Assembly (NCBI GenBank): GCA_017416285.1
Contig: JAFQCU010000031.1
Span: 1-35,941 of the forward strand
Length of the DNA stretch: 35,941 bases
Reading direction: 5' to 3'
Source: Clostridia bacterium
Lineage (GTDB): Bacteria > Bacillota > Clostridia > Oscillospirales > Acutalibacteraceae
Of this stretch, positions 4,851 to 16,394 are shown piece by piece (the stretch's first letter is position 1; the number at the start of each line of letters is the position of its first letter). The notes under the pieces were generated by a model. The model did not search any database and had not been told where the DNA came from. It worked only from the letters and a program-made list of their open reading frames with translations. The position numbers and the translations under genes were made by a program.

Positions 4851-4893
4851 AAACGACAAGATATTTCTTGAGGAAATATCTTGTCGTTTTGTT
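4851..4893. terminator. Strong bidirectional terminator
   Basis: A 17-bp perfect stem (4851-4867 with 4873-4889) around the loop TTGAG has A residues on its left and TTTT on its right. It ends both the EEP gene on the plus strand and the giant-protein operon on the minus strand. Confidence 0.9.
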
Positions 4894-4905: not shown

Positions 4906-5028
4906 TTAAAGGCTCAGATCGTCTATATCACCAAATGAGTTATCGTTCTCACCGCCGTTGCTTGCTGCAATAACGTCCTTGGCTTCAAACTTGATTACTT
5001 CAATTTCGGGTTTGTTAAAATTATTCAT
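4906..5028 (-). CDS. 40-residue peptide, second copy (DVIAxSN family)
   Basis: The peptide is a paralogue of the one encoded at 5046-5168. Its first half contains K-P-E-I-E-V-I-K-F-E followed by D-V-I-A-A-S-N, and its second half is acidic and Gly/Asn-rich without cysteine. AGGAG lies 7 bases before the ATG. It is the last gene of the giant-protein operon, 17 bp after the first peptide. From memory, short proteins with a P-x-I-E-(V/I)-I-x-F-E-x-x-D-V-I-x-(T/A)-S core recur in gut Clostridia near large secreted proteins; no function is known to me. The conserved front and variable acidic tail look like a leader and payload, but no modification enzyme is nearby. Confidence 0.75.
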   Translation of the reverse strand: MNNFNKPEIEVIKFEAKDVIAASNGGENDNSFGDIDDLSL

Positions 5029-5045
5029 ATTTTTTCTCCTTTCGA

Positions 5046-5168
5046 TCAAGGTTTTACAACTTCATTATCAAATCCATCATCATCAAGATCGGGTTCGTTA
5101 CTTGTAGCAATTACATCACGACTTTCAAAAGCGATGATTTCAATAATAGGGGTTTCAAATTTTATCAT
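5046..5168 (-). CDS. 40-residue peptide, first copy (DVIAxSN family)
   Basis: The peptide reads M-I-K-F-E-T-P-I-I-E-I-I-A-F-E at the front, then S-R-D-V-I-A-T-S-N, then an acidic tail rich in Asp. About half its first 24 positions equal the second copy, and both are exactly 40 residues. The gene starts 23 bp after the stop codon of the 1949-residue secreted protein, with AGGAGAGAG upstream, so it is clearly expressed with it. It has no signal peptide, membrane segment or cysteine. Real coding status is supported by the paralogue, the ribosome binding site and conserved spacing. Confidence 0.75.
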   Translation of the reverse strand: MIKFETPIIEIIAFESRDVIATSNEPDLDDDGFDNEVVKP

Positions 5169-5191
5169 TGTCTTCTCTCTCTCCTAAATAA

Positions 5192-8100
5192 TTATTTACT
5201 CATAAGGGCTTTGGCAATATTAAACGACGCACGGCAGCCACCGTAAAAATGCGTGCCGGTGTAATTGTTATAATGGGTTCTTAACATACCGTTTGCATCA
5301 TAATAACGAAGATAAGCACGTGCTGCAATACATTCATCATATTGACGTTCAAGCTCTTCACCGGTGGCTTTAGTATAGGTTATAACCGCCGTATAAAGTC
5401 TGTATGCCTCGCCATCATAATGGTCGGTTACACCGCTACACTTCATATTCTTTACATAGTGGAATTCTTCATTTGTATCAACGCCGTTTACGTTATCACC
5501 CTTGTATTGCAAGGTGGCATCAATTGAAGTGCCCATATTATCAGTAACTTTTGCAGCCTTGGCAACAACAAAGCCATATTCAGCGGTTTTTCCACTAATA
5601 GCATTTATTTGCGCATAAAGCTCTTCACTTAAAACAGTAATAAATCTAAGGCCGCTTGCTGCATTACCATAATGCGACGCATAATTTGCTTCCTTATCAC
5701 GGATTTGAACACCAATAAGGTCAAAGCCTATGTAGGTATTGGTAGGTGTTTTCTTAGTGTCTGCTGCTTCTTTTTGTACTGTACCGGTTTCAATCCAATG
5801 AGCATAAACATGGGTAGTTGAATTATAAACATCATCCCAGCTTATTGGACGGTCGGTGCTGTCTTTATCAAGATACCAACCCTTAAATACATACTTATTA
5901 TGTGTGTCGTATTCAAAAACGGGGATATCGTAGAATGAAGGTATTGTACCATCAGCCGAAAGTGAGTAAAGACTGCTGCCTGCTTTAAGTGAACCCGCAG
6001 GATAGAAGGTGCGGAAAATATCGCCAAATTCAGCATCGGTATTGTTAGCGTGGAAAATCACCCTGTTAATATTAATAACAGCGCCAACTGTACCCATCTG
6101 TGTATGGTTATAATCTTCACCCTGAGCATATACACCCGAAAGTGTTGTATCAGCTTGTCCTTCGTCAACGGTAGGAACAGCACCACCCTCAACAACTATT
6201 TCAGCATTATATCCGCCACCGCTATAAGCAACGTCGGCAATGGTTTCGTTCATAGGAATCTTACTGCCATCTGCCATATTAAGCTGAATGACTTCAATTC
6301 TGTAAAGATAAGGGATTTGATTTTCGGTATCGTACCAGTGAGGCACAAGATAATTGCCTTTACCGTAACCGGTTTTATTGTCAATGCTAACAGTAAGAGT
6401 GGTTATTTCGTGTTGAGCAATATGGTGCCATTCCCAACCGGTATTAAGTAACGGATGGTCATGCCAAGATGTAACCTTAACCTCTACCGATTCGGGATAT
6501 GCATCCTCAGGAACACTGTCCGCCATATCAACATAAAACTCAAGGTTGAAGAGGTCGGGGTTATACTGTAAGGTGATACTTACAGTATGCAAGGTAGAAC
6601 CGTCAGGTTGCTCTGTCTTAACTATGCTCTTACCAACTACTAAATAATCATCTAATACAACGTTTACACCATAATCATATTCAGAAGAAAGTTGTGAATA
6701 ATATCGGGGTACTTCGAATACATCTTGTTGTACATTATCGCCGTGAGTATGCCATAAACCGTTGCGATATTCCTTTGCATAACCGGGCATATCAATATAC
6801 ACGTTGTCTTCATCAACTAAATTACGATCTACGTAAGTAAGCTGTGTATAAAGAGTCTTGTTATAGTTGTTTGCAAGACCGCCTTCATCATTTAATTGGT
6901 TATGATTAATTGTAATAATAAGGTCTACAACGTCCATAACCTGAATCCACTTAGCATAAAGAGTGGTATCTTCTGCTACCGAAGCATCAATATAATCAGC
7001 TGCGGGAATTGTGAATTTTTCATCCAAATACCAACCATCAAACTTAAAGCCGTCAAAGGTAGGTACAATACCTGCGATTGAGGTTTCAAAGCTCCAAGTA
7101 TGGGTTGTGGGATAATTGCCCGATAATGTACCGCCGTTTGTTTTATAAACGATATTATATGTCTTGGGTATAAGTGTTGCAGTTAATTCTTGATTTTGTA
7201 CCCCGTTAAGATAGAAGGCAGGTGCCTCATATTTTACGCTAAAGGGTAACTCATCAGAGAATACAACCTTTGAGCCGTTGTACATAGTGATATCCTGCAA
7301 TCTGATACCGTACATATAGTTTGTAACACCGTCTGCTCTGCGAATCCATACATAGTCAGAGCCGCTGCCCTTACCGTCAGCAAGAACAATAGTATTTCCC
7401 TTTAACATATTGTCAAAAATCATTTGAGTAATAACTTTCCACTCTGAAGGAATAGGACCTGCAAGATAATCGTCGTATGTTATAAGAACTTCAACATCAC
7501 TGGGTCTGAAGCTTTCGCCAATTTGTTCAGCATTAACCGAATAATTAAGCTCGAATTCTTCAGGAACAAAGTGATTGTGAACATTAACGGTTGCGGTATA
7601 GATGTCTTCTGTGCCGAAATCCGCAATAAAATCATCGTGATTATAGGAAGGATAATCTAAATAATTGTTTAAGCTTTCATCTTCGTTTTGGAAAGCGGGT
7701 GTATAGTTAGGAATAAGAACCTGTACACGATACTTATGACCGTCATCGGGAATTCCGCTAAACGCATATTCTGCAAAGCCAACTATACGACCGTTGAAAT
7801 AATACTTATCCTTTGTATAATCTAAAGTAAGTGTTTGTTCAGCTATTGTTTCGGTATAACCGTTTTTATCAATTTTTTGAAGCAAAACAACAACCGTTTG
7901 AACCCACTCATTTTTATCTATCTGATGAACGGTCTTTGAACCGTCACCGTTTGTTTGCTCATAGGTTGCACCAACGGTAATCATACCGTTAACTGTTAAA
8001 GGTTGCTTCCACTTTGCATAAAGTCTAATATCTTCTTTAAGATATTCGCCTTCCACCGCAAGAATAGTGCACGCTTCATCCCTATACCAACCGTCAAATA

Positions 8101-11041
8101 CATATCCGCCGTCTCTTACAGGTACGTAAGCATCAAAGCCGGGCACTTTATATTGATCTTCAACAGTTTGTTCGTCAAAACCGTTTACCTTGCCGCCTTG
8201 TGCATCAAAGATAACATCAAAACCTTCGGTGGTAATTAAAGCATTAAGAGTACCGTTTTGAACACCGTCAACAAAATAAGCACCATTTACATCGCCATAT
8301 TGCTGACCACCAACAGCACCAAGGGTTACAGTGTAAAGGTCGGTACTGTTTTGGGTGAGTCCTTCGAGTAAAGGTGTGTTTACTCTAACAATGCTTCCGT
8401 CAGGATAAACAAGAGCCGAAACCACAATACGATAACCGTAAGGACTAATGGTGTTATTAGGAAGTACTTCAAGTGCGTTAACGGTAAAGTGACCGTAACC
8501 TATACGAGTTGCACTATCAATACCAACACGTACACCGGGGCGTAAAACACCGTCTTGTTCACGTTGTTCAACAACAACCTTCCAGCAATTATCTTCAGTA
8601 GACCAGAACAAAATTTTTACAATTGCTGCTTCGGGAACTAAGCCTTGAGGAACGTCATCGTCAACCTTAACCTCAAACTCTAATTCACAGTATGACGGAT
8701 TATAATCGAGCTCAACATCTATAATTATATCGCCATTTTCATTTGTTCTAGTTTGAACAGATGTAACTACGTAATTATATTTTTCAGTTACAACAGTATA
8801 AATGTTGTTTTTTGAAAAACCGGTAAAGGTTGGCGTATTTGCCAAGTATACGGTTTTTAAAATAAAAGCATCACTAGCTGCATCTACAGGATAATATTTA
8901 TAATCATGCTTTGCGTGATTAGTGTTTGAAATGGCAATGCTGTTACCTGTTTCAAGATAAGGAGTATTAACATCGGGGGCAAATACAAGGTCTAACTTAA
9001 CATCATCTTTAGAATCAGTATGGTCAAAATCGCTTTCGGTATCTGTACCGTGGTTAATGGTAACGTTAATAAACACATCAGCAGCATCTTCCCACTGTGC
9101 GGTAAGGGTATAGGCTTTACCGATTGCATTGGTAAGAACGTCACCACTGTTATAAAAATTACCGTATTGGTCCTTCCAACCTGTAAAGATGTATCCATCT
9201 CTTGTAGGCGCTGCGCTATCAACCTTTACAGACGTATCAGAATAATGATATTCTAAAAGCTTATCAGGGCCGCCAACACCACCGTTTAAATCATAATTAA
9301 CCGTGTTAAAGAATATGTAACGTGTACGGTCAGCACCGTTAATTGTTAATTCCTGCGAAGAGGATAAAATGTAATCGGTACCGTCGTAATAATAAATATG
9401 ATAAACACCGTTTAAAAGCTTTGCAGTGTAAACACCCGTAGCGGTGCGTACAAGCTCGATATATTCACCATTTTCGGCCTTTACGTAGATAGCTACGTTC
9501 TGACCTGCAATAGTAGTAATATCTGTTCTTTCACCTGTTGCGGTAGCAGTAGAAGAATCGTAAGAACCGTTAAGAATTACTTCAACCGTACCGTTATATT
9601 TAGAAGGCGCAAGCATATAAATAGCGACAAAGGTCAAATCTTCATTAACCGATTTATACTTTTCCAAAATATCTTCTTGACTCAAGATGGTGCCATCGCC
9701 ACCCTCAAGCATCCAGCCTTGGAAGATATAGTTTTCTCTGTTGGTGCTACCGTCAAATCCAACAGCCTTATCCCCCGCTTTAATGGAAGTAACCTGGTCG
9801 TTAAATACTAAATCCTTAACACCGTCGGTATAGGTTAAAATATAATCGACTCTTTCCTTGCTATCCTCTTTGGATTGAAATGCTGCAAGATAATAAGTTC
9901 CGGTCTTCTTTTCATATTTAATACCGGTACCCGAAATAACAAAATCGGATTTATTAGCTGCTTCAAGATTAATTTGTTCAATAACCAAGTTATATTTATA
10001 ATTTCTGCCGTTTTCGGTGGTAATATATGAACCGCTCCATACGCCCGAACCGTTATCTTTCCACTTAATATCCTGATTAAAGTGCTTATTGTACGCAAGA
10101 AGCACGGCGGGAAGCTCTTCTCCCCACATGGGAATAGGGTTGCTTTTAAAGTCTTCTTGGTCGTTGGTATAACCGCCGAAAATCTTACCCTCATGGTCAT
10201 ACATTTCTATAACGTAAACCGGGGGTTTAACCGAAAGAATACCGTCGCAATGGTTATCGGGTTTTGAAGCCGAGCCTTGGTTTTTAAGGCAATAACCAAC
10301 AAAGGTATCGTAAAGACCGGTCGCATCGAATGCTTCTATACTTGCTTCGTCCATACACGCTTTGACAGCATCCCAGAAAGCGGTAGCATATTCAAGATTT
10401 TCTTTATATTCCTCTTCGCTGTTATTGCTGTCAGATTTTTGAGCAGGAACAAAATGATAAGAGTTAGAAACGTTTTGCTGGTACAAAACAACGTCAGAAT
10501 ATTCCGCACTTTGAAGCTTTGCAACGTTAACGTTTATAGTAACAAGCGGTGTATTGTCACCTGCGGGGCCGTAATCCTTTGCTTCGCCATAGCCGTAGAA
10601 GGTATCCGGAAAATGACCATCAGCGATATAATAAACGCCAAATTCCACCCATTTTTCACCTTGGGTATAATCCTTAAGTGTTAATACAACCGAGTCAGCC
10701 GACTTTGCTATTTGTTGGCTTGCGGTATATGTATCGCCGTCAACAGTTAAGGTTGCGTTTACGGTATAGTATTTTGTACTGCTTTGATTATATCTGCTTT
10801 TATCAAAGCTGAAATAACCGTCGTGCTTTGTAACCGTAACGTTTTGAGTACGGTTAAATAAAACGCCGTAAACGTGAGTAACACTAACCGAAAGATTAGA
10901 ATCGGTAACAACGTTACCGTTCTTATCAACCACAGTTATTGTCACGTCGTTTGCTGCCGCTGACAATACAAAGGCCCCCATGGGCAGCATGGTGAAAACC
11001 ATACATATTGTAAGCAACATAGCGATTAGTCTTCTTTTCAT
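5192..11041 (-). CDS. Giant secreted protein with InlB B-type repeats, 1949 residues
   Basis: A Sec signal peptide (M-K-R-R, hydrophobic core, cleavage probably after L-S-A-A-A near residue 29) leads to an extracellular protein. Five Listeria-Bacteroides repeats (G-W-x-x-D and L-x-A-x-W endings) lie near residues 430-500, 575-660, 940-1015, 1295-1370 and 1650-1740. The last four are spaced 363, 353 and 363 residues apart, so the protein is built from super-modules of about 360 residues; between the repeats are beta-rich segments with a recurring V-P-x-x-x-x-P-x-x-V-x-V-K pattern. A different C-terminal domain (about 1757-1949) carries G-L-R-F-I-T and a Y-N-N-Y-T-G-T-H-F-Y-G-G-C ending, seen in other clostridial secreted proteins. 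No LPXTG motif, SLH domain or C-terminal anchor is present. AAAGGTGG precedes the chosen ATG at 11041; an upstream in-frame start has no such site. Probable role: surface adhesion or structure. Confidence 0.85.
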   Translation of the reverse strand: MKRRLIAMLLTICMVFTMLPMGAFVLSAAANDVTITVVDKNGNVVTDSNLSVSVTHVYGVLFNRTQNVTVTKHDGYFSFDKSRYNQSSTKYYTVNATLTVDGDTYTASQQIAKSADSVVLTLKDYTQGEKWVEFGVYYIADGHFPDTFYGYGEAKDYGPAGDNTPLVTINVNVAKLQSAEYSDVVLYQQNVSNSYHFVPAQKSDSNNSEEEYKENLEYATAFWDAVKACMDEASIEAFDATGLYDTFVGYCLKNQGSASKPDNHCDGILSVKPPVYVIEMYDHEGKIFGGYTNDQEDFKSNPIPMWGEELPAVLLAYNKHFNQDIKWKDNGSGVWSGSYITTENGRNYKYNLVIEQINLEAANKSDFVISGTGIKYEKKTGTYYLAAFQSKEDSKERVDYILTYTDGVKDLVFNDQVTSIKAGDKAVGFDGSTNRENYIFQGWMLEGGDGTILSQEDILEKYKSVNEDLTFVAIYMLAPSKYNGTVEVILNGSYDSSTATATGERTDITTIAGQNVAIYVKAENGEYIELVRTATGVYTAKLLNGVYHIYYYDGTDYILSSSQELTINGADRTRYIFFNTVNYDLNGGVGGPDKLLEYHYSDTSVKVDSAAPTRDGYIFTGWKDQYGNFYNSGDVLTNAIGKAYTLTAQWEDAADVFINVTINHGTDTESDFDHTDSKDDVKLDLVFAPDVNTPYLETGNSIAISNTNHAKHDYKYYPVDAASDAFILKTVYLANTPTFTGFSKNNIYTVVTEKYNYVVTSVQTRTNENGDIIIDVELDYNPSYCELEFEVKVDDDVPQGLVPEAAIVKILFWSTEDNCWKVVVEQREQDGVLRPGVRVGIDSATRIGYGHFTVNALEVLPNNTISPYGYRIVVSALVYPDGSIVRVNTPLLEGLTQNSTDLYTVTLGAVGGQQYGDVNGAYFVDGVQNGTLNALITTEGFDVIFDAQGGKVNGFDEQTVEDQYKVPGFDAYVPVRDGGYVFDGWYRDEACTILAVEGEYLKEDIRLYAKWKQPLTVNGMITVGATYEQTNGDGSKTVHQIDKNEWVQTVVVLLQKIDKNGYTETIAEQTLTLDYTKDKYYFNGRIVGFAEYAFSGIPDDGHKYRVQVLIPNYTPAFQNEDESLNNYLDYPSYNHDDFIADFGTEDIYTATVNVHNHFVPEEFELNYSVNAEQIGESFRPSDVEVLITYDDYLAGPIPSEWKVITQMIFDNMLKGNTIVLADGKGSGSDYVWIRRADGVTNYMYGIRLQDITMYNGSKVVFSDELPFSVKYEAPAFYLNGVQNQELTATLIPKTYNIVYKTNGGTLSGNYPTTHTWSFETSIAGIVPTFDGFKFDGWYLDEKFTIPAADYIDASVAEDTTLYAKWIQVMDVVDLIITINHNQLNDEGGLANNYNKTLYTQLTYVDRNLVDEDNVYIDMPGYAKEYRNGLWHTHGDNVQQDVFEVPRYYSQLSSEYDYGVNVVLDDYLVVGKSIVKTEQPDGSTLHTVSITLQYNPDLFNLEFYVDMADSVPEDAYPESVEVKVTSWHDHPLLNTGWEWHHIAQHEITTLTVSIDNKTGYGKGNYLVPHWYDTENQIPYLYRIEVIQLNMADGSKIPMNETIADVAYSGGGYNAEIVVEGGAVPTVDEGQADTTLSGVYAQGEDYNHTQMGTVGAVININRVIFHANNTDAEFGDIFRTFYPAGSLKAGSSLYSLSADGTIPSFYDIPVFEYDTHNKYVFKGWYLDKDSTDRPISWDDVYNSTTHVYAHWIETGTVQKEAADTKKTPTNTYIGFDLIGVQIRDKEANYASHYGNAASGLRFITVLSEELYAQINAISGKTAEYGFVVAKAAKVTDNMGTSIDATLQYKGDNVNGVDTNEEFHYVKNMKCSGVTDHYDGEAYRLYTAVITYTKATGEELERQYDECIAARAYLRYYDANGMLRTHYNNYTGTHFYGGCRASFNIAKALMSK

Positions 11042-11100: not shown

Positions 11101-11129
11101 AGTATATCACGTAATCTGGTTTAGGTCAA
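11101..11129 (-). promoter_or_regulatory. Promoter of the giant-protein operon
   Basis: Minus strand TTGACC (11129-11124), 17 bp, TATACT (11106-11101), preceded by TG one base upstream of the -10. The leader to the start codon is about 53 bases without obvious structure. Confidence 0.8.
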
Positions 11130-11218: not shown

Positions 11219-12337
11219 TTAAACATCAATTTTTAAAATTTCACAAATTTGGTTTACCGCTTCATCATAGCTTTCAAATTCAACTACAAAGTCACAAATT
11301 TCGGCATTGTGCTTTTCAGATTCAATACCCATAAGGCGGTTAACCTTGTCTTCAACAGAAGAATTCTTACGCAAAATATTTGACATAAGTGCCTTTTTAT
11401 CACGCTTAATATAGATTGTAAGCACGTTTTTAAAATGTGTTCTAAGGGTCATTGCACTGCTGATATCCATTGTGGTTAACACGTGCTTGCCGCTTTCAAG
11501 AATAGCCTCTATATCACCTTTACGAGAGCCATATCCGTGACCCGCATACATTGTTGACTGGAACATTTCGCCACTTTCACACATTTGGCGGAAGGTTTCA
11601 ATATTAACGTAATTATACCACTCGTTCTTTTCAATAGCGGTGGGGTCGCTGGTAGTAAAGCTCATAAGCTTTTCAAACTTATCGGTCTTTTCCAGTACCT
11701 GACCTGCAATTTTTGATTTACCGCTACCGGAAGGGCCAACCAAAACCACAATGGTAGGCTTTTTAAGGTTTATAACCTTATCCTTAACACTATAACTGTC
11801 TGCAATAACTTCAACAAGATTTAAAAATTCATCATAGTTATTAACCGCCATTATGCCGGTTGCTTCTTGGTTCCAAGGGCGGCGCATAAGCACGGGATAG
11901 GTAGCACTTGAGTTTATGATATTGTGCATTGCATCATCAAAAAGAATATCCACGTGAATTTTATCTTTTTTGGCGCCCATATAAATATGGTCGGGTGAAA
12001 TTTCAGGAAATTCTTGCATAATACGCTGCGCACGTATACCCATAAATTCGGGCGGAACAGCTGTACAGATATAAACCTCGGTCATTTGAGTAAGGCGTTT
12101 TACAAATTCCTTTGCGCCGGGATAAACAGGCTGTGTGCGATAAAATTCAGGGTCGCTAAAGTATTCATAAACTGTGTCAACACGGGTGCCAAGCTTACCC
12201 CAAGTCACCTTTTCGTAAATGGTCATCGGCGGGTCAAATTTGTGTTTTTCATTTGCTAATCTAATTGCATAGGACGTACATTCCATTAAAACGTCATCTA
12301 TATCCAATGCGGTGGAAAGTCTGTGTTTTCTGTTCAT
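11219..12337 (-). CDS. Fusion of a HAD 5'-deoxyribonucleotidase-like domain with a guanylate kinase-like domain
   Basis: Residues 1 to about 185 resemble the NT5C-type HAD nucleotidases: D-I-D-D-V-L at 12-17 supplies the nucleophile and acid Asp, followed by I-C-T-A-V-P and L-F-D-D-A. Residues about 195-372 resemble guanylate kinase: Walker A G-P-S-G-S-G-K-S near 202-209, S-F-T-T-S-D, Y-N-Y-V-N, and a G-H-G-Y-G-S-R-K-G-D segment where guanylate kinase contacts GMP. One half would remove a phosphate from a nucleotide and the other would add one. The kinase half departs from housekeeping Gmk: the usual T-R-x-x-R GMP-binding motif is replaced, so its substrate may differ. GAGGG precedes the ATG. 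It is a single-gene unit on the minus strand with its own promoter and a terminator-like leader. Confidence 0.75.
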   Translation of the reverse strand: MNRKHRLSTALDIDDVLMECTSYAIRLANEKHKFDPPMTIYEKVTWGKLGTRVDTVYEYFSDPEFYRTQPVYPGAKEFVKRLTQMTEVYICTAVPPEFMGIRAQRIMQEFPEISPDHIYMGAKKDKIHVDILFDDAMHNIINSSATYPVLMRRPWNQEATGIMAVNNYDEFLNLVEVIADSYSVKDKVINLKKPTIVVLVGPSGSGKSKIAGQVLEKTDKFEKLMSFTTSDPTAIEKNEWYNYVNIETFRQMCESGEMFQSTMYAGHGYGSRKGDIEAILESGKHVLTTMDISSAMTLRTHFKNVLTIYIKRDKKALMSNILRKNSSVEDKVNRLMGIESEKHNAEICDFVVEFESYDEAVNQICEILKIDV

Positions 12338-13198: not shown

Positions 13199-14068
13199 CT
13201 ACCCTTTCACTCCCCCAACCGTCATACCCTCGGTCAATTTTTTCTGCACTAAAATATATAAAATTAAGGTCGGCAGCATTACAAGTACAAGCCCCGCATA
13301 CATAATACCATACTGTGCCTTTGCCTGCTGTCCTTGCATTAAATTCATAAGTCCGACAGGCAAGGTACGGGGTCCACCCGCTTTTGATAACAGCGTCATT
13401 GAAATTATATATTCATTCCAAAAAGATAAAAAATTAAATAAAATTACCGTTATAATCGATGGTTTTGCAAGCGGAAACATAATCTTTACCATTGTTTCAA
13501 AATATCCCGCACCGTCGATATATGCCGCCTCTTCAAAATCGTGCGGTAGCCCCGCAAAGTACGAGGATAAAAGATATATTGTAAAAGGTAACGCTGTCGC
13601 CGCATAAACCAGTGCCAGCACAAACAAGTTATTAAGCAAAAAGCCGCTACCAAAAATTTCTTTTAATACGTTGTCGCCGTCACGCAGCATTAAAAAAATC
13701 GGCACTACAATGTAGTTTACGTTTATAAAAAGTCCCGCCATGAAAAACGCATTTAAAACACTATTGCCCCAAAACGCAAACCTCGACAAGCAGTAAGCCG
13801 CCGGCAAAGATATAACTAAAATTAGCGCTAATGCCAAAGCTGTAACTACAACTGACGACAGCATATATTCGCCCATTTTGGCGGTTTTAAAGGCTTCTGA
13901 AAAATTTTGAAAATACAGCCCAACAGGCAGCGACCAAGGGTTGCCGTAAAACTCAAAATTTTGCTTAAAGGACGCTAATATAACCCATGCAACGGGCACT
14001 AAAACCGTTATAGAAAGTATAATAAACGCCACGTAAATTAATGCTTTATAAAGGCTTAATTTTTTCAT
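13199..14068 (-). CDS. Carbohydrate ABC transporter permease, MalG type
   Basis: 289 residues with six hydrophobic segments. The conserved E-A-A-Y-I-D-G-A-G-Y-F cytoplasmic loop (EAA motif, which touches the ATPase) lies near residues 180-191, and the C-terminal M-T-V-G-G-V-K-G is typical of the MalG-like (CUT1) group. It forms the membrane channel with the MalF-type partner encoded 11 bp upstream. AAAGGGGG lies 8 bases before the ATG. No ATPase gene is present, so a shared MsiK-like ATPase encoded elsewhere probably energises it. The sugar cannot be read from the permease. Confidence 0.9.
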   Translation of the reverse strand: MKKLSLYKALIYVAFIILSITVLVPVAWVILASFKQNFEFYGNPWSLPVGLYFQNFSEAFKTAKMGEYMLSSVVVTALALALILVISLPAAYCLSRFAFWGNSVLNAFFMAGLFINVNYIVVPIFLMLRDGDNVLKEIFGSGFLLNNLFVLALVYAATALPFTIYLLSSYFAGLPHDFEEAAYIDGAGYFETMVKIMFPLAKPSIITVILFNFLSFWNEYIISMTLLSKAGGPRTLPVGLMNLMQGQQAKAQYGIMYAGLVLVMLPTLILYILVQKKLTEGMTVGGVKG

Positions 14069-14079
14069 AAAATCCCCCT

Positions 14080-14961
14080 TTAGAACTGCAAAACACGGCG
14101 TTTTGTCACACGATTAACCGCAAAGGAAAGCAGAAAAGAAAATATAAATATTAGCACTCCCGCAGCCATACTGTAGCCGTAAAGTCCGTCGTCCTTTTGA
14201 TTGTACATAAAGGAAAGTACAACCTCACTTGCGCCATTGGGCCCGCCGGAGGTCATTGCCTTTACAAACAAAAAAGCCATATTTATGGTGGAAATTATAA
14301 AGAAAGTAAGTGTCGTGCGAAGATTTGTCCAAATAAGGGGTAAGGTGATGTTAAAAAACTCACTAAAACGGCTTGCACCATCGAGTGATGCGCTTTCATA
14401 CATACTTTTAGGCACTGCTGACATTGACGCCATATACATTACCATATAATATCCTACAGCCTGCCATACAAGAGCTATAATAAGCGAATAAATCACCGTA
14501 TCCTCACCCTTCCAAAGCACAGTTATTTTCTTACCAAAAACCGATAAAAAGCTGTTTAAAAGTCCATTTTCGGCATCGTATATAGCAGAAAACACACCGG
14601 ATATAACCACAACCGATAAAATATTCGGTATGTAGAAAACCACACGAAAAAAATTGCCGCCAAATACACGGTCACGGGTAAGGAAAAACGCAAATAAAAG
14701 TGCCAATGACATTGTAAAAACCGTTACCGCAACAATCAAAAAAATGGTGTTTTGTGCCGCCCTTATAAACCTTTCGTCAAAAAGCAAAACCTTGAAATTT
14801 TCAAATGCCACGTAGCTTTCCTTATTGGAATATGCCCCTCGTTCAAAAAATGACATTCTGAACACCGAAAAGGTTGGGTAAAGCATAAATATAAAAAACA
14901 ATGCCGTAGCGGGAGCAACGCACAAAAGCACAAACAAATTTTTTCGTTTTACAGCGTTCAT
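14080..14961 (-). CDS. Carbohydrate ABC transporter permease, MalF type
   Basis: 293 residues with six hydrophobic segments. The EAA-loop motif E-S-A-S-L-D-G-A-S-R-F near residues 189-199 places it in the MalF-like CUT1 group. It lies between the binding-protein gene (51 bp upstream, separated by a strong hairpin) and the MalG-type gene. GAAGGAG lies before the ATG. It would pair with the MalG-type protein to form the translocation pore. Confidence 0.9.
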   Translation of the reverse strand: MNAVKRKNLFVLLCVAPATALFFIFMLYPTFSVFRMSFFERGAYSNKESYVAFENFKVLLFDERFIRAAQNTIFLIVAVTVFTMSLALLFAFFLTRDRVFGGNFFRVVFYIPNILSVVVISGVFSAIYDAENGLLNSFLSVFGKKITVLWKGEDTVIYSLIIALVWQAVGYYMVMYMASMSAVPKSMYESASLDGASRFSEFFNITLPLIWTNLRTTLTFFIISTINMAFLFVKAMTSGGPNGASEVVLSFMYNQKDDGLYGYSMAAGVLIFIFSFLLSFAVNRVTKRRVLQF

Positions 14962-14987
14962 CCTTTATACTCCTTCTTTAAAAATTG

Positions 14988-15005
14988 GGGCGGGATTCCC
15001 CGCCC
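14988..15005 (-). terminator. Intercistronic hairpin between binding-protein and permease genes
   Basis: Minus-strand GGGCGGG-gaat-CCCGCCC followed by CAATTTTT. A GC-rich hairpin placed just after a binding-protein gene commonly trims or stabilises the message, so that more binding protein than permease is made. Confidence 0.65.
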
Positions 15006-15011
15006 TTTAAT

Positions 15012-16334
15012 TTATTCTTTTATTAAATTTTCTCGCATAATTACATTTGCTTTTTTAATATCCTCTATCCATTTTTCTTTAGTAAGCTTACCGCTGACAA
15101 GCGAGTTTATAGGGTCGAAAAACACCTCATTTATGCTACCAAGACCCGCAACCGACTTATATGCCGCAAAGTTGCCCATCGCCGCTTTTGCGCCGTTATC
15201 ATAAATTGAATAAAACAACTTGTTTTCTTCATTAAGCTTATCCGAAACATTTAATACAGGCTGAATAGCATTACGGCTTGCAAAAATTTCACATGCTTTA
15301 TCTGAATACATATACGACACAAACTTTTTGGCATCCTTAATATTTTCAGCACCCTTGGGCACCCAAATTTGTTCTATCCAAGTGTAGGAGTATTGACTGC
15401 CGCCCGCCTTTACTGATGGAAGTGCCGTCATACCCCACTTAAAGCCCTCGGCAGCCTTAGCGTCTTGCATTTCACCCACAATCCAAGTGCCGTTAGGCAT
15501 AAATAACGCTTCGTTTTGCATTACTAAAAGCTGATTTTTAGTGAAGTCCTGATCGTTAGCCTGTGCGGGTGTTTTGGGATTAGTATAGGTCGCTAGTTTT
15601 GCTACGATATCAAGACAAAGCTTACCCTTGTCACTATCCCAAATATCTTTTTCATAATGTGTTGCTTTATCAAAGAAATCCGCACCGCCCACCGAATACA
15701 TAAGTGCGTAGAAAAACGCATCAAAATAACCGGTTGTGGGGTATGTGAAAAGATAAATTCCTTCTTTTTTGGCCTTGTCGCCTAAAGCCCACATTTCATC
15801 CCAGGTTTTGGGCACCTCCCAACCCTTTTGTTCAAATAATCCTTTATTATAAAAAAGTCCGCAAGGCGAATAAAACATCGGCATTAGATAGGTTTTACCG
15901 TCACCGTAAGGGTTAGTGGCAACACTATCAGTAAAGCCGCCGGCAAGCTTATCCTTAACCTTTTTGCTTTCACCGGGTATTGTCATTGAAAGCACGTCTG
16001 AAAGGTCGGTTAAGTTTTTATCCCTAATAAACTGCTCGGTAAGACCTGCTTCTCTGCCGGTTGCCAAAAGCACAACGTCGGGAAAATCGCCGCCCTGCAT
16101 TGAAGCTGAAATAACGTCCTCTAAATTCTTTTCAAGGGTTAATTCAACCTTTATTCCGGTTTCCTTTGTGAAAGCATCACAAACCTCTTTCCACATTCCG
16201 GCTTTTGTTGCCTCGTACCCCGATGATAACGCCGCAACACGAAGCGTCGCCGTTTTTTCTTCTTTGGCTTTGCAGCCTGCAAAAATACCCGACAGCATTA
16301 CTGTCATTAGTAAAAGTGCCAAAAACTTTTTCAT
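15012..16334 (-). CDS. Sugar-binding lipoprotein of an ABC transporter (family 1)
   Basis: 440 residues with a lipoprotein signal: M-K-K, a hydrophobic core and G-I-F-A-G-C, so Cys21 would be lipidated and the protein held outside the membrane. The body has the family 1 extracellular solute-binding pattern (P-K-T-W-D-E-M, N-G-T-W-I-V-G-E, A-x-x-F-V-S-Y). Some features recall NgcE-type N-acetylglucosamine/chitobiose binders, but this is weak. The ATG at 16334 follows AAGGAGG by 9 bases; an in-frame upstream start has no such site. It leads the operon with the two permeases and the small membrane protein, under a promoter with a palindrome at the RNA start. Confidence 0.85.
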   Translation of the reverse strand: MKKFLALLLMTVMLSGIFAGCKAKEEKTATLRVAALSSGYEATKAGMWKEVCDAFTKETGIKVELTLEKNLEDVISASMQGGDFPDVVLLATGREAGLTEQFIRDKNLTDLSDVLSMTIPGESKKVKDKLAGGFTDSVATNPYGDGKTYLMPMFYSPCGLFYNKGLFEQKGWEVPKTWDEMWALGDKAKKEGIYLFTYPTTGYFDAFFYALMYSVGGADFFDKATHYEKDIWDSDKGKLCLDIVAKLATYTNPKTPAQANDQDFTKNQLLVMQNEALFMPNGTWIVGEMQDAKAAEGFKWGMTALPSVKAGGSQYSYTWIEQIWVPKGAENIKDAKKFVSYMYSDKACEIFASRNAIQPVLNVSDKLNEENKLFYSIYDNGAKAAMGNFAAYKSVAGLGSINEVFFDPINSLVSGKLTKEKWIEDIKKANVIMRENLIKE

Positions 16335-16351
16335 TAAAAAATACCTCCTTA

Positions 16352-16394
16352 AACGCAATGCGTTGTATTATAAATATTTGGAAACTTGAGCCAA
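16352..16394 (-). promoter_or_regulatory. Promoter and palindromic operator candidate of the sugar ABC operon
   Basis: Minus-strand TTGGCT (16394-16389), 16 bp, TATAAT (16372-16367). Immediately downstream AACGCAATGCGTT (16352-16364 in plus orientation) is a perfect 6-1-6 palindrome covering the likely RNA start. That is where repressors of sugar operons bind; no regulator gene is adjacent. Confidence 0.6.

Follow-up and report, generated by a model that had tools for sequence, protein, structure and literature searches.

Short peptides behind a giant clostridial surface-protein gene belong to a widespread family of probable precursors for a PqqD-dependent pathway

What might two short paralogous peptides do when they are encoded directly behind the gene for a giant surface protein? 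The question arises from a stretch of 35,941 nucleotides, here called the window, which spans positions 1 to 35,941 (forward strand) of contig JAFQCU010000031.1 in assembly GCA_017416285.1, from a Clostridia bacterium of the Acutalibacteraceae (Oscillospirales). An earlier note on this DNA had reported two 40-residue open reading frames with ribosome-binding sites that follow a 1949-residue gene at short spacing. This layout is confirmed: 23 bp separate the stop of the giant gene (5192) from peptide A, and 17 bp separate the stop of peptide A (5046) from peptide B (Table 1). The list of open reading frames begins peptide B at an upstream TTG, and the ATG at 5028 gives the 40 residues used here. 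Common to both peptides is the core P-x-I-E-[IV]-I-x-F-E-x-x-D-V-I-A-x-S-N. One further copy was found in their own genome, and all three come from a large, unnamed family of precursor-like peptides, for which identity as leader peptides is the best-supported reading. That this family travels with surface proteins and with a particular gene set, and that its tails recur on surface proteins, suggests an unrecognised tagging or signalling system.

Table 1. Features of the peptide locus, in window coordinates
Feature	Positions	Strand	Description	Basis
Terminator-like hairpin after B	4851..4889	-	17 pairs and T tract; closes the giant-A-B unit	consensus match only
Peptide B	4906..5028	-	40 aa, MNNFNKPEIEVIKFEAKDVIAASNGGENDNSFGDIDDLSL; leader-like head to ...DVIAAS, acidic tail NGGENDNSFGDIDDLSL	ORF list and sequence
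Shine-Dalgarno of peptide B	5036..5041	-	AAGGAG, 7 nt before ATG	
Peptide A	5046..5168	-	40 aa, MIKFETPIIEIIAFESRDVIATSNEPDLDDDGFDNEVVKP; leader-like head to ...DVIATS, acidic tail NEPDLDDDGFDNEVVKP	ORF list and sequence
Shine-Dalgarno of peptide A	5180..5185	-	AGGAGA, 11 nt before ATG	
Giant surface protein	5192..11041	-	1949 aa; signal-peptide-like N-terminus; Listeria-Bacteroides (Flg_new) repeats	N-terminus by eye
CTD-1, C-terminal domain of the giant	5195..5707	-	common to other peptide-linked secreted proteins	
Promoter-like site	11101..11129	-	TTGACC-17-TATACT, second hexamer preceded by TG; 60 bp upstream of the giant gene	consensus match only

Directly upstream of the giant gene, a single minus-strand reading frame (11219-12337) combines NT5C 5'-nucleotidase and guanylate kinase domains. 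Upstream of the giant's operon, also on the minus strand, lies a sugar-type ABC importer (13199-16358) made up of two permeases and a solute-binding protein (15012-16358, SBP_bac_1).

The peptide family and its coding character

A profile built from 11 peptides, including the three copies of the window genome (G000), detected the family in 104 of 394 genomes of the order at E<=0.05, with up to 10 members per genome. The third copy of the window genome (G000:C37:26001-26111, 36 aa) was recovered with peptide A alone as query (E 0.0027); it is flanked by channel-like and HAD-like genes, named by eye, and has no secreted protein in front. Three other genomes of the window's genus gave no match to the family profile at E<=0.05. 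Divergent head-like reading frames do lie near PqqD genes in two profile-negative congeners of the window species (L336 3471-3575 and L338 7790-7903, both on the minus strand), and the profile-negative genomes G066 and G532 hold divergent head-like reading frames beside the gene set described below (E 1.4e-5 and 0.049, the second being weak). A pattern-based scan of named genomes added 80 loci, among them loci of Ruminococcus flavefaciens YL228, YAD2003, SAb67 and ND2009. Of the 100 loci fetched from the profile search 98 were used, after removal of L110 (stop inside) and L079 (without a start), and 79 of the 80 named loci were usable, L269 being without a start. Peptide set A2 leaves out L004, which matched in its tail only, L011, which falls within a large ORF, and the near-duplicate L013.

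Comparison of 69 members picked for variety (set A3) with Pfam, NCBIfam and PHROGs returned scattered single matches only (best E 0.013). The family profile had no match in the PDB at E<=1, peptide B had none among plasmids, and in the open-access full-text literature no description of the family was found.

The earlier note had likened the conserved head and variable tail to a precursor peptide family, and the family alignment supports this well. Among 100 aligned peptides, the head positions are occupied by Y/F in 98, P in 89, E in 80, D in 97, T in 74 and S in 98, and a further head position is F in 73 and otherwise L, Y or I. Beyond the conserved Ser the sequence is variable, with a Trp aligned near the end in 55 of the 100. 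The tails have a median of 16 residues, and 143 of the 153 tails of at least 10 residues are net acidic.

Reading frames were compared in the closest paralogue pair from each of 17 genomes, a sample that does not include the window genome. In the heads, 113 of 237 differing codons (48%) are synonymous in frame, against 9% and 4% in the other two frames; in the tails the corresponding figures are 23% against 10% and 12%. The argument for coding rests on this comparison because the tail count of 20 synonymous to 7 non-synonymous codons covers only 7 of the 17 pairs, chosen for few tail changes, and all 17 pairs together give 27:92. The peptides are real, and the frame test applied to their family indicates that they are coding.

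Surface-protein genes in front of the peptides

With genes called as the longest open reading frames, without a gene finder, a same-strand gene ends at most 60 bp upstream of the peptide in 62 of the 98 loci. These upstream genes have a median length of 880 aa; 44 encode a signal-like N-terminus by a home-made hydrophobicity rule, 9 are cut by the contig end and 9 are without one, as compared to 95 signal-like products among the 397 other genes that are complete in these loci. At the named loci such a gene is present in 59 of 79 (31 signal-like, 22 not, 6 cut; median 735 aa), and some of these loci have PqqD-like or HPr-kinase-like genes after the peptide. The earlier note had proposed to check whether the core motif recurs near secreted proteins in other genomes, and it does.

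This tight coupling is what would be expected if the peptides were cytoplasmic chaperones or export aids for the secreted protein, as the earlier note had proposed. However, the upstream proteins carry unrelated domains, including LRR, InlB-like repeats, Big_2, cohesin, subtilase and GH16 (set A4 of 59 of the 63 upstream proteins, four large ones being left out for size), their peptides share a generic head, and some copies, the third one of the window genome among them, stand away from secreted genes. Such a role would also leave the PqqD, S26-like and ABC genes and the tails unexplained. The evidence therefore disfavors a chaperone or export aid that serves this giant specifically, and we regard the proposal as very improbable.

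Single-linkage clustering of the C-termini of the 63 upstream proteins yields two shared kinds, with 24 members (the window giant included) and 16 members, respectively. Clustering was needed because a profile search seeded with the window's C-terminal domain alone gave only five proteins, and we use its figures since the count from profile models (33 of 63) is circular, these models having been built from the same proteins. Pfam and NCBIfam scans gave no name to CTD-1, nor, among the families listed, did they name a C-terminal domain common to the upstream proteins. Profiles of the C-terminal domains, themselves built from positive genomes, match in 25 of 30 peptide-positive genomes and 1 of 20 peptide-negative ones, the single negative match being weak. 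The converse association is loose: 60 CTD protein ends were read across five genomes, and a peptide follows only 9 of them.

A full-length homologue of the window giant (44.6% over 1969 aligned positions) is present in genome G159. Behind it lie a lipoprotein-like reading frame (this label throughout denotes a lipobox recognized by eye) and a secreted protein that ends in KPDLDDDGFYDDVIKP, to be compared with the tail of peptide A, EPDLDDDGFDNEVVKP. This secreted protein has the look of a dockerin by eye, yet no Pfam match. On the other side of the giant homologue, in divergent orientation, are a family peptide and HPrK-like, PqqD and S26-like genes.

Six near-identical C-termini of the type CTD-2 (L199-L204) were found in the window's own genome, on contigs C12, C32, C31, C13, C5 and C17, all of them at contig ends. 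A repeated surface-protein end thus seems to break the assembly of this genome, and so more surface genes are likely to be missing from it, perhaps along with peptides.

A probable gene set for processing and export

In the complete genome G207, whose cluster was read through, two surface-protein genes and a family peptide are followed by genes for an HPrK-like protein (243 aa), a PqqD protein (102 aa), an S24/S26-like peptidase (148 aa), an ABC exporter (588 aa) and an NTP_transf_5 nucleotidyltransferase (410 aa). The same order, with or without intervening genes, is found in G270 and in the seven named loci L215, L232, L237, L255, L259, L263 and L272. Overall, at least two of the HPrK, PqqD and S26 genes lie near the peptide on the same strand in 25 of 180 loci (9 of 100 and 16 of 80). 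At the other 155 loci, some of which are cut by contig ends, two core genes are not found nearby, and the maturation proteins would have to be supplied there in trans.

The set also follows the peptide across genomes. Standalone PqqD (PF05402) is present in 28 of 30 peptide-positive genomes, and NTP_transf_5, the HPrK-like protein and the S26-like protein in 27 of 30 each, against 8, 7, 6 and 7 of 20 peptide-negative genomes, respectively; this comparison is unmatched for phylogeny, for every negative comes from the window's own family and the positives come mostly from outside it, and it sets positives hand-picked among the profile matches against part of the matchless genomes (270 more are matchless). 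G066 and G532, which hold the divergent head-like reading frames noted above, are two of the negatives that have the set. One peptide-positive genome, G542 (91% complete), lacks all four members.

The members of the set differ in how firmly they can be named. The PqqD (PF05402), ABC and NTP_transf_5 proteins of the G207 cluster are Pfam matches. Among solved structures the PqqD profile is closest to TbiB1 (E 1.1e-7) and TfuB1, which we take to be lasso recognition proteins. The label HPrK-like derives from Hpr_kinase_C, which 3 of 10 members match with a best E of 8.5e-5, from HPr kinase 1ko7 at E 0.012 and from an invariant GxGKSTH motif. For the S26-like protein, Peptidase_S24 is matched in 4 of 10 members at best E 1.4e-4, the match shown being below the cut-off, and signal peptidases of the PDB are reached at sub-threshold E values of 0.046-0.21. 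Its alignment displays a GxSMxP motif and S33, H72 and D88, which are invariant in all 10 members. Ser-His-Asp is the triad of the SEC11-type signal peptidases, and these enzymes prefer small residues at positions -1 and -3.

The earlier note had remarked that no maturation enzyme is present. This holds for the window itself, but elsewhere in its genome are genes for a PqqD protein and an S24-like peptidase side by side (G000 C34:7650-8370), for another PqqD-like protein together with an ABC exporter (C31:4490-6407), for an HPrK-like protein (C32:666-1361) and for an NTP_transf_5 protein (C34:70004-70717), and, as noted above, 25 of the 180 loci carry two or more core genes close by. As the NTP_transf_5 gene lies behind or among polysaccharide-synthesis genes, it may serve another path, outside the set. 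A conserved leader, a variable core and an adjoining RRE protein, the combination that marks a RiPP precursor, occur together at part of the loci; for the window locus the RRE protein is encoded elsewhere in the genome.

Taken together, we consider it on balance probable that peptides A and B are precursors in a RiPP-like pathway that depends on PqqD. The leader bound by a PqqD protein encoded in trans would be the head, [YF]-x-x-P-E-[ILM]-E-[IV]-[IV]-x-F-E-x-x-D-[VI]-[IL]-T-x-S. The S24/S26-like peptidase, with its invariant Ser, His and Asp, would cut after the almost invariant Ser, and the ABC exporter would take the acidic tail out. In 98 of 100 peptides a Ser closes the head, and Thr stands at -3 from this site in 132 of 172; from these residues, the triad and the preference for small residues we infer that the peptide is cut after the Ser and that the tail is exported. 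Modification of the tail may fall to the HPrK-like and NTP_transf_5 proteins, the kinase-like and nucleotidyltransferase genes being the only modification-type genes seen in the set. Since only 7 of 174 distinct peptides have a C-terminal Ser, phosphorylation of such a residue, as in paeninodin, is not expected for most. The exported tail would act at the cell surface, with surface proteins that are co-transcribed with it or bear the same C-terminal tag. The pathway would be related to the phosphorylated or glycosylated lasso-peptide clusters, though with neither a lasso leader protease nor, in the cluster examined, a cyclase. In the open-access full-text literature no set of HPrK, PqqD, S24, ABC and nucleotidyltransferase genes was found described apart from lasso enzymes.

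In a Ruminococcus metagenome-assembled genome (L273 3073-3599), a family peptide is followed by a radical-SAM-like reading frame that is cut by the contig end and matches Radical_SAM at E 2.5e-5, below the cut-off; it could possibly encode a different maturase.

The tails on surface proteins, and comparison with known systems

The tails recur at the C-termini of some surface proteins, sometimes in a genome-specific manner, which raises the possibility that the tail is a surface-protein tag. For secreted neighbors of the peptides, 7 of 178 loci reach a score of at least 28 between C-terminus and tail, compared to a mean of 0.7 and a maximum of 2 in 20 shuffles; for other neighbors there is 1, against 0.35 in shuffles. 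The secreted or membrane protein encoded before HPrK in 28 genomes matches the peptides of its own genome with a mean score of 17.5, as against 13.2 +/- 0.9 when genomes are permuted (0 of 2000 permutations), a preference to which related genomes with ELPFVP ends contribute. For this protein the own genome ranks in the top 5% in 6 of the 28 cases and outside the top quarter in 14. In the window genome, the corresponding gene is a lipoprotein-like reading frame ending in FEDDL, and two of the three peptides end in EEDLF and DIDDLSL, a weak match.

On one reading, surface proteins carry the tail as a portable C-terminal tag, and the leader peptide delivers this tag, or a free decoy, in trans to proteins without it; the PqqD set would then serve surface-protein anchoring or assembly rather than a free natural product. 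In G314, where 20 of 21 CTD-1 matches were read and fused tails were recognised by eye, 7 of the 20 proteins carry a fused DND...PW[NE] tail, 5 are instead followed by a peptide ending in GDND..DPWA and 8 show neither, so that the tail is fused in some paralogues and split off in others. The sequence EGDNGTGWG ends both a G285 peptide and the secreted protein 190 bp downstream of it. ELP-type ends (ELPFVP and similar) recur in lipoproteins, a dockerin protein and peptides, two tail-bearing neighbors (L206 and L223) match Dockerin_1, and in G169 a lipoprotein ends in NDPAVEDPF and a peptide in NDPYVDDPFDD. The secreted protein of G159 that ends like peptide A is a further case; tail A occurs at no other place in its own genome or in three congeners. 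On the other hand, when the C-termini of CTD proteins of five genomes were compared with their own-genome tails, a preference was seen in G314 only and none in G169, G345, G285 and G000; the ends in G169 score higher with the tails of another genome, and even in G314 the G285 tails reach the same threshold for 7 proteins. The tail of G159's own peptide has no match to the tagged protein of that genome, no receptor, ligase or sortase was identified, and the loose coupling of CTD ends to peptides (see above) also speaks against a simple tag. We hold this reading as a tentative possibility.

Alternatively, the PqqD set might make the tail as a pheromone specific to the species or as an antimicrobial, with co-transcription merely coupling its dose to surface-protein expression. 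Dispersed multi-copy precursors with a conserved leader, a variable tail and an ABC exporter fit such a product, as does the finding that, at equal head identity (50-65%), the last 12 residues of the tails are more alike within genomes than between them (45% vs 22%; 23 vs 458 pairs). Yet the same tails on lipoproteins and giant proteins would be unexpected for a simple pheromone, and inspection of the clusters by eye revealed neither a receptor nor an immunity gene next to the peptides. We consider a pheromone or antimicrobial unlikely. Within genomes, the closest paralogue pairs have like tails (at most 4 amino acid changes in the last 10) in 7 of 17 genomes and unlike ones in 10, and the three tails of the window genome disagree.

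A broader proposal joins these elements into a new surface system, in which lineage- or genome-specific C-terminal tags borne by giants, lipoprotein stalks and dockerin proteins would also be made as leader peptides, and the RiPP-type set of PqqD, HPr-kinase-like protein, S26-like peptidase, ABC exporter and nucleotidyltransferase would cut, modify and export them, supplying the tag or a free competitor in trans. As a whole this proposal is speculative and rather unlikely, less so than a free pheromone or antimicrobial.

The precursor reading preferred here says what a widespread but uncurated class of tiny genes is, and possibly does the same for PqqD-type recognition proteins found without known RiPP enzymes. 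It also connects leader peptides of the RiPP type with surface proteins of Clostridia from gut and rumen. Should the tail be a tag, the question becomes how these bacteria place their large surface proteins, with a defined gene set at hand. As isolates of Ruminococcus flavefaciens carry the family, these ideas are testable in culture.

The same isolates invite comparison with the cellulosomal dockerin proteins of R. flavefaciens. The family resembles these in its presence in R. flavefaciens and in the Dockerin_1 matches of the tail-bearing proteins L206 and L223, which come from other genomes, and differs in that the peptide has neither a dockerin nor a signal peptide. No such peptide is named in the titles and abstract openings of the papers listed on this subject, eight of 63.

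The closest likeness is to the lasso-peptide clusters of Firmicutes, of the paeninodin and pseudomycoidin type, which, as presented in the portions of PMC7533575 and PMC8498205 drawn on here, combine a discrete PqqD protein (B1) with an HPr-kinase homologue, a nucleotidyltransferase and a transporter, as the present set does. Lasso precursors are short, and many of those in Table 3 of PMC7533575 have a Y/W-x-x-P-x-[ILV] leader motif, whose register is also visible in the heads described here, with weak similarity. Against 29 distinct precursors used from that table of 35, the head profile scored above the 99th percentile of shuffles in only 12, with a best score of 10.7 bits. The kinship of the family's PqqD profile to TbiB1 and TfuB1 among solved structures points the same way. 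The head, the PqqD protein, the HPrK-like protein and the nucleotidyltransferase thus suggested membership among the lasso peptides. We nonetheless do not file the family there, because the lasso leader protease (PF13471) is nearly missing and no cyclase was detected among the five cluster genes tested. PF13471 exceeds the cut-off in 1 of 50 genomes, with 4 more below it and none in the window genome, and the single match, in G207, is partial and lies 0.7 Mb away from the cluster. No asparagine-synthetase-like cyclase is matched by any of the five genes in that cluster, the other clusters being judged by gene order. Unlike lasso clusters, moreover, the present ones contain an S24/S26-like peptidase in place of the PF13471 protease, and the precursors are dispersed behind surface-protein genes. 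The combination of Gly at position 1 with Asp or Glu at positions 7-9 occurs in 35 of 153 tails, against 12.2 expected by shuffling, and so in a minority; both window tails begin with Asn.

The RRE-Finder account, in the part used here, offers a further point of reference: of almost 8,000 standalone lasso-type RRE proteins, only about 4,000 are accompanied by the lasso leader peptidase and cyclase (PMC7470986). The standalone PqqD-like RRE proteins described here resemble those that occur without lasso enzymes. The link to surface proteins sets them apart, as it finds no mention in that part of PMC7470986, and the terms "HPr" and "nucleotidyltransferase" have no occurrence in its main text. 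The gene set that accompanies the peptides may fall among the thousands of lasso-type RRE proteins without lasso enzymes reported there (PMC7470986).
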